Assembly (NCBI GenBank): GCA_014381585.1
Contig: JACNLH010000079.1
Location: 1 to 41,133, forward strand
Direction of reading: 5' to 3'
Length of the DNA stretch: 41,133 bases
Origin: Candidatus Sulfurimonas ponti
GTDB lineage: Bacteria > Campylobacterota > Campylobacteria > Campylobacterales > Sulfurimonadaceae
The notes under the pieces are model-generated. The model made no database searches. It was not told the DNA's origin and saw nothing but the letters and a program-made list of their open reading frames with translations. A program made the translations under genes and the position numbers. Shown in pieces: positions 5,124-6,791 of this stretch (position 1 is its first letter; each line of letters starts with the position of its first letter).

Positions 5124-5585
5124 TTATTTTTGAATTATAGCTAATTTAGATAAAAATGCATTGAGTTGGTTTGCAAACATCTCAGCATCTTTTTGTCCAA
5201 AAGGTTTAGGACCTTTAGTTATTTCACCGCTTTCACGGATTTTTTCCATTAAGTTGCGCATCGCCAAATACTGTTTTATATTATCCACACTGTAAAGCTC
5301 ACCTCTATGGTCTATCGCATGAGCATTTTTGCTTATCGTTCTGTCTGCTAAAGGTATGTCTGCGGTTATCACCAAGTCACCCTCTTCTAGCATAGCAACA
5401 ATCTCATTATCTGCTTCATCAGCACCGGCTTCGACAATCATGTACTCTATTAAGCTTGATTTTCCGATACTCACTTTTTTATTTGCCACCACTATCGTTT
5501 GGATATTTAAACGTTGGATTTGTTTAAGCAGTATAGGTTTTAAGATATTTGGAAATGCATCTCCATCCACATATAATTTAAACAT
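5124..5585 (-). CDS. UPF0178 / YaiI-YqxD family protein (DUF188)
   Basis: MFKLYVDGDAFPN...VITADIPLADR...AHAIDHRGELY; ATG at 5585 preferred over the ORF-track start at 5630, which lies inside the upstream hairpin element. Confidence 0.88.
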   Translation of the reverse strand: MFKLYVDGDAFPNILKPILLKQIQRLNIQTIVVANKKVSIGKSSLIEYMIVEAGADEADNEIVAMLEEGDLVITADIPLADRTISKNAHAIDHRGELYSVDNIKQYLAMRNLMEKIRESGEITKGPKPFGQKDAEMFANQLNAFLSKLAIIQK

Positions 5586-5619
5586 ATTAAGTACCTCTCC
5601 ATAAATAACCCAAATTTCA

Positions 5620-5717
5620 GCGAAAAGCAAATAGTTCTAGTGCTAGGCAGATTTCTGCAGGACTAGCTTGCTAATCCAAAGGAATCTAACGACGCAATAG
5701 GGCTATTTGCTTTTCGC
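5620..5717 (+). repeat. Hairpin element A (98 nt; arms GCGAAAAGCAAATAG...CTATTTGCTTTTCGC)
   Basis: Perfect 15-nt arms extendable to ~24 with G.T pairs; 50-nt core matched in spacing to element B. Confidence 0.75.
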
Positions 5718-5724
5718 CCGAAGG

Positions 5725-5822
5725 GAAGTTTAAAAAGAGGGCTACTGCTTCGTTGAAAATCCTTGAAGCTACTAGTAGCTCCTACGAATCTTCGCCTTAC
5801 ATTAGCCCTCTTTTTAAGCTTC
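5725..5822 (-). repeat. Hairpin element B (98 nt; arms GAAG(T/C)TTAAAAAGAGGGCTA; central palindrome AGCTACTAGTAGCT)
   Basis: 20-nt arms 5725-5744/5803-5822 with one mismatch; 14-nt perfect palindrome at 5767-5780; core on minus strand resembles element A core on plus strand. Confidence 0.8.
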
Positions 5823-5837
5823 TGAAAATGGGATTAT

Positions 5838-6791
5838 TTATGGAGATGTACTTATTAGCTCCAGTTTTTCTTTTCTTGAGAGTTGTTTTATTGCGTACTC
5901 TCTTTGCATCGCGTGAACTTTACCATCCGCATTTTCAAAATATACCAACTTCACCGGTCTTCGCACTTTTGTGTATTTTGCACCTACATTAGAAGTGTTG
6001 TGTTCTTGCACTCTTCTTTGTAAGTTTGTTGTCACTCCTGTGTAAAGTGTATCATCGGAACATTGAAGCATGTAGACCTTCCAAGAACTTACAGGCGTTA
6101 CAAAGGTGTCGTTGCCCTCCACTTGATAAAATCTAGCCTCATTAAAGCGGCAATGGTACATACTGTATCCACATACCAATGAATCAAGCGTATCTTCATA
6201 GTCTTTTAATTTCTGCCCTTTACACTCTCTTATATCAACTTTTAAAAGAGGGTGCGCAGAAACAACTTTAGATAAATACTTTTTATATATATCCAGCTGT
6301 TCTCTGATAAACTCAGTATTACGCCCTTTTTTTCTTTTATAGGGAAGAATTTTATGATTGTTAAAAAGCATCGCAATAGTTGCGTTGGGGTACACTTCAA
6401 AAAGCACTTTGTCGTTTTTAAAATCTCTTTTAAATCCAGATGCTACAAGTTTTTTATACAACTCTTCACTTCTAATATTCGGGGAATGTTTTTTCAGGAT
6501 TTTTCTATTTGCAGGAAGCATAGAGATTTTATATTTTGCAAAATCTTTGTTGAAGTTTTTTTCTATTTCACGGTTGCCACTTTCATTTGGAACAACTAAA
6601 GGTGCATCCACACCAACATAAACCTTATGCTCTTCATATTTTTGTATCTCTTTAACTATTTCATCTATCGATTTCAGAAGTTGAATATCAAGAATTTTCA
6701 AACTTTTAGATTTTGGATGAGAGATTAAGACACAAAAGCCTGAGAGATTTTTCTCTCCCCAAGCCAAGTCTATGCCTATGTAAATATCCAA
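5838..6791 (-). CDS. DUF429 domain protein fused to C-terminal GIY-YIG endonuclease domain
   Basis: N-term MDIYIGIDLAWGEKN...VGVDAPLVVPN...FEVYPNA; C-term VYMLQCSDDTLYTGVTTNLQRRVQEHN...AMQREYAIKQLSRKEKLELI. Confidence 0.85.
   Translation of the reverse strand: MDIYIGIDLAWGEKNLSGFCVLISHPKSKSLKILDIQLLKSIDEIVKEIQKYEEHKVYVGVDAPLVVPNESGNREIEKNFNKDFAKYKISMLPANRKILKKHSPNIRSEELYKKLVASGFKRDFKNDKVLFEVYPNATIAMLFNNHKILPYKRKKGRNTEFIREQLDIYKKYLSKVVSAHPLLKVDIRECKGQKLKDYEDTLDSLVCGYSMYHCRFNEARFYQVEGNDTFVTPVSSWKVYMLQCSDDTLYTGVTTNLQRRVQEHNTSNVGAKYTKVRRPVKLVYFENADGKVHAMQREYAIKQLSRKEKLELISTSP

Follow-up and report, generated by a model that had tools for sequence, protein, structure and literature searches.

The window, a stretch of 41,133 nt from a Candidatus Sulfurimonas ponti contig (JACNLH010000079.1), carries between a YaiI/YqxD-family gene and a DUF429 and GIY-YIG gene a single 263-bp element (5590-5852), flanked by TA on both sides, of which two long hairpins, A and B, form the halves (Table 1). 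In the original prediction these hairpins, of 98 nt each, 7 nt apart and with their cores on opposite strands, had been taken for two separate elements; their dimensions and orientation were confirmed, and it is the delimitation that changes, the real unit being the hairpin pair bounded by terminal repeats. Those repeats, of ~30 nt and 86% identical over 36 nt, enclose both hairpins, so that hairpin A follows the left repeat, CCCGAAGGG joins it to the oppositely oriented hairpin B, and the right repeat closes the element. With its 263 bp, its terminal inverted repeats and no plausible gene inside, the element has the build of a MITE. No Rfam family scored above its gathering threshold in the window or in the elements of 40 further loci, where the only matches were to flanking or host RNA genes, and a tRNA/tmRNA search of the window returned none.

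Table 1. Parts of the element and its neighbouring genes, in window coordinates
Feature	Position	Strand	Remark
YaiI/YqxD-family gene (DUF188)	5124..5585	-	downstream of insertion
Left TA of target site	5588..5589	.	from sequence; class consensus TA/AGTNCC...GGNACT/TA
Left terminal inverted repeat AGTACCTCTCCATAAATAACCCAAATTTCA	5590..5619	+	
Hairpin A	5620..5717	+	core strand +; covariance-model score 98 bits
AGGC in the conserved AAGGC / AACG internal loop, hairpin A	5645..5648	+	
Central CCCGAAGGG between the hairpins	5717..5725	.	outermost bases also belong to the adjoining hairpins
Hairpin B	5725..5822	-	core strand -; covariance-model score 100 bits
Right terminal inverted repeat	5823..5852	-	
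DUF429 and GIY-YIG gene	5838..6791	-	upstream of insertion; stop codon inside right terminal repeat
Right TA of target site	5853..5854	.	

Both hairpins fold far better than expected from their composition when read on the core strand. Hairpin A reaches -46.6 kcal/mol (z -7.7) and hairpin B -44.2 kcal/mol (z -7.2), with 0 of 200 shuffles as good in either case; the bracket patterns of the two core strands are almost alike and the opposite strands give weaker folds. As one strand, the whole 263-bp element folds to -114.3 kcal/mol (z -12.0), with a stem closing three hairpins. The 50-nt core that the hairpins had been proposed to share is real, given that A and B have 25 of 50 letters in common compared to 12.9 in shuffles (0 of 20,000 as high), and the arms are, as had also been observed, entirely different.

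The junction occupied by the element is empty in many relatives, where YaiI-family and GIY-YIG-ending genes adjoin and TTTAAACAT is directly followed by TTATTAGCTCC or a similar sequence. One further genome (G098, locus L031) has a copy at the same junction that is 92% identical to that of the window. An alignment of the two copies by eye revealed three double-sided changes, in the outer, second and third stem of A, along with one pair that is lost and one change in the terminal repeat by which a pair is regained; compensatory change in an orthologous copy, which the original prediction had named as a check, is therefore present. The adjacent YaiI gene shares only 72% identity between the two genomes, which would reflect either strong constraint on the element or two insertions at one site. 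At the window's own junction, the left terminal repeat read outward gives GGAGAGGTACTTAATATG on the minus strand (5583-5600), placing a Shine-Dalgarno-like sequence immediately ahead of the YaiI-family start codon. At the other end, the stop codon of the GIY-YIG gene falls within the right terminal repeat (5838-5852), so that the insertion altered the last residues of this gene relative to the empty sites.

Full copies were found by BLAST at unrelated sites in genomes of the same genus, and a covariance model of the hairpin (R1), used for the family scans, matched 81 of 135 genomes of the genus. Across Campylobacterales it matched 105 of 399 genomes and 31 of the 87 genera sampled, with up to 30 or more matches per genome. 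Among the matches listed from a phylum-wide sample every one was in Campylobacterales, and strict single-pattern matches in named records came nearly all from metagenome bins of Sulfurimonas or of other Campylobacterota. No match was obtained in viral contigs, plasmids or phages, the viral scan being a weak one that used a single exact B-type pattern. When neighbouring hairpins bounded by matching ends were sought without recourse to the core sequence, 96 distinct elements emerged. Their hairpins mostly measure 94-106 nt, and the layout is almost fixed, with two ~98-nt hairpins in inverted orientation on either side of CCCNNNGGG and a terminal repeat at each end. The many copies in related genomes, the matches across the genus and the order, and the empty site bear out the suggestion that the family is dispersed and mobile. 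The original prediction had named a lack of additional copies as a ground for its refutation, and many such copies exist.

The fold of these hairpins is conserved to a degree that strongly supports the earlier proposal of selection on structure rather than on arm sequence. Across 142 distinct hairpins, standard pairs occupy 94.7% of pair cells, a proportion that falls to 40-48% when the pairing is slid by one column, and 36 of 39 pairs display double-sided compensatory change (covariation of 0.785 compared to 0.230 in shuffles). In the 78 non-redundant hairpins the arms vary almost freely, and the internal loop AAGGC/AACG and a second loop are nearly invariant. Wobble pairs furthermore distinguish the strands: G.T exceeds A.C by 491 to 79 on the core, inward-reading strand. 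The same direction is seen among nine sequences less than 65% identical (24 to 3), and at stem positions 13-18, under wobble-blind pairing (153 G.T and 4 A.C, with stem positions 1-2, the junction bases, left out of this count). The exact ratio is not to be relied on, because many copies are related and hence not independent, and because positions were located with a covariance model that accepts G.T. The stem formed by the terminal repeats has no G.T/A.C strand preference under wobble-blind pairing, in a set that came from a finder accepting G.T on one strand. Together, the counts show that the fold of each hairpin is preserved in single-stranded form, and on the inward-reading strand; with the core of A on the plus and that of B on the minus strand, this is for each hairpin the strand running from its own end towards the middle of the element. 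Wobble polarity alone cannot tell RNA from single-stranded DNA.

The transposase type of the autonomous elements in these genomes is NCBIfam IS5_4. Ends of the GGGCACCTCTAAAAAC type are carried by an autonomous IS5-family element in the window's own genome (L181) and by others, and TTGAACCCTCTGAACAA ends by autonomous IS5-family elements in three genomes (G144, G116 and G013), in both cases the same as those of another repeat class; the GAGACCNCTG class has an approximate terminal-repeat match to autonomous elements in two genomes (G152 and G153). The GGGCACC and GAACCC classes thus share ends with autonomous IS5-family elements and the GAGACC class does so only approximately, while for the window's class (AGTACCTCTCC, AGTACC) no autonomous IS was found in the genomes searched. 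Target duplications are TA-rich and 2-4 bp long, again as in MITEs: TWA in 13 of 14 cases for the TACC class, 4 bp in 5 of 10 for the GGGC class, and TA in 34 of 52 for the window's class, where the evidence is weaker since TA is palindromic. Short TA-rich target duplications are expected for IS5-family subgroups. IS5-family DDE transposases acting in trans probably mobilise the element; they would recognise the terminal repeats and insert it at TA-rich sites. From the relatedness of the ends we infer that the class found in the window is likewise mobilised by an IS5 relative. An autonomous element carrying the hairpins was also sought; all 27 autonomous IS loci examined lack them, which makes the interior of the element an addition and not an IS remnant.

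We conclude that the element is not a terminator but a MITE-like, non-autonomous transposon that carries two arms of conserved structure, and it is probable that the A-B pair and its terminal repeats form a mobile element whose single-strand structure is under selection. Like IS5-family MITEs, the copies are short, gene-free, intergenic and numerous, with target duplications of the kind just described and, in two classes, terminal repeats that match a resident IS5-family element; unlike them, they enclose two covarying hairpins not found in the autonomous IS, and the window's repeat class is without a matching autonomous IS among those found. In the Bacillus cereus group, bcr1-3 are MITE-like and bcr10 and bcr18 have conserved secondary structure, and the bcr repeats are likewise dispersed and intergenic (PMC3446304). 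They occur in another phylum, and the comparison is by description. We know of no terminal-repeat-bounded inverted hairpin pair among the bcr repeats.

Insertions are almost all intergenic, and at the 76 classifiable sites the flanking genes run in tandem in 40 cases, diverge in 32 and converge in 4. In one complete genome (G207), all three 16S rRNA genes carry a full member of the element family, of ~270 nt, in an early-helix loop (L328, L360 and L362; 16S rRNA at 152-1957 on the minus strand). No further hairpin matches occur in this genome outside the three genes, and members of its family with readable 16S genes have no such insertion. Lying inside an rRNA gene, with ends that pair into a stem, the G207 relative is placed and built as an rRNA intervening sequence (IVS), whereas the window copy, being intergenic, is not so located. 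In the 16S IVSs of Campylobacter and Helicobacter the ends pair to form a stem, and RNase III may remove these sequences; that of H. fennelliae, of 355 bp with a 24-bp end stem, partly resembles a 23S IVS in opposite polarity (PMC3335488). The origin and use of rRNA IVSs have been described as unclear, one hypothesis being that they are remnants of transposition (PMC4990558). The G207 insertion, in an early 16S helix loop of three genes, resembles these by their published description, and the family differs from them in that most of its members are intergenic mobile copies.

The IVS-like 16S copy is the strongest hint of an RNA role and leads us to favour RNA processing of an entering transcript, with a role of the hairpins as DNA in transposition as a close rival; it strengthens the RNA-processing reading of the original prediction, which stays one option among others. 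A transcript entering from either side would meet a correctly oriented double-stranded stem, and most likely a host ribonuclease of the RNase III type would process this stem, rendering insertions tolerable even in rRNA. That the hairpins act at the RNA level has, in our judgement, slightly less than an even chance, and it is weakened by the 32 divergent sites, where no gene transcript enters the element. The same sites are in keeping with a reading in which the hairpins of the same mobile element act, at each of its ends, as single-stranded or cruciform DNA that recruits the transposase or a host factor, RNA being irrelevant, and so is the orientation of the hairpins to their own transposon end and not to flanking genes, the inward strands being equivalent by symmetry. 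Against such a role stand the lack of strand preference in the terminal-repeat stem, the residence of one copy in rRNA genes and the autonomous IS5 copies without hairpins, which indicate that transposition as such does not need them. DDE transposases, moreover, normally work on double-stranded ends, which we also count against a DNA role; it is nonetheless a serious, if somewhat improbable, alternative.

Less can be said for readings without a transposon of this kind or without selection on its fold. Slippage or template switching could correct quasi-palindromes and keep the arms complementary with no selection at all, and arms and terminal repeats do both keep matching while they drift. Such correction should, however, also close the internal loops, whose mismatched letters are nearly invariant in the non-redundant set, and it predicts no strand preference, whereas G.T is far above A.C on one strand; the open loops and the strand polarity make pure palindrome correction insufficient, and we regard it as very unlikely. 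Even slimmer is the case for bidirectional transcription terminators, one of the functions originally suggested, or 3' UTR structures: T runs do end some arms, but other subfamilies have no GC-rich stems with U tracts, and the distribution over tandem, divergent and the few convergent sites excludes a general terminator role. Least credible is a REPIN/BIME-like element that depends on a Y1 (RAYT) transposase for its movement, for all that REP, BIME and REPIN elements likewise comprise inverted hairpin pairs between genes in many copies. REPs are much shorter than the ~98-nt hairpins seen here, terminal repeats and short target duplications accompany the element, and Y1 transposases are not consistently present: of 18 genomes with the element 7 have none, and that of the window is among them. 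An integron attC site was ruled out by inspection, as conservation is internal here and it is the outer arms that vary.

As far as our searches show, what is new is a MITE family in which two inward-facing hairpins keep their structure across an order and occur with several classes of terminal repeat, and which has one member residing in 16S rRNA as an intervening sequence. The literature on Sulfurimonas MITEs yielded nothing relevant and no description of the family, which is weak evidence given that the search was partial. It is conceivable, though we advance it with some doubt, that this is an undescribed order-wide class of mobile structured element whose paired hairpins serve a single-strand function of their own, most likely the processing of RNA so that insertions do no harm, and that it is the source of the Campylobacter and Helicobacter rRNA IVSs. 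A mobile family with one IVS-type member makes the question of the origin of rRNA intervening sequences testable. The interiors of MITEs are usually taken as passive filler, whereas here the folds persist in many genera and in several classes of terminal repeat. In addition, hundreds of so far unannotated repeats in Campylobacterales can be annotated with the covariance model.

Some loci depart from the usual layout. In elements of the GGGCACC and GAGACC classes (L042, L043, L065, L112 and similar), one hairpin is of an unrelated type (GAGATTGTGCAAAACTTTTTTTGAGTCATAGC...), of about the same length and partnered with a B-type hairpin. Solo hairpins without terminal repeats and with near-identical flanks occur in four genomes of three genera in one family (f9; L343, L345, L347 and L350), apparently as an old, retained copy. 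Two Sulfurimonas genomes have a single diverged hairpin beside the gene for the small SRP RNA (L355 and L357), and another single hairpin is found directly upstream of a tRNA gene within a tRNA cluster (L349, 1501-1597).
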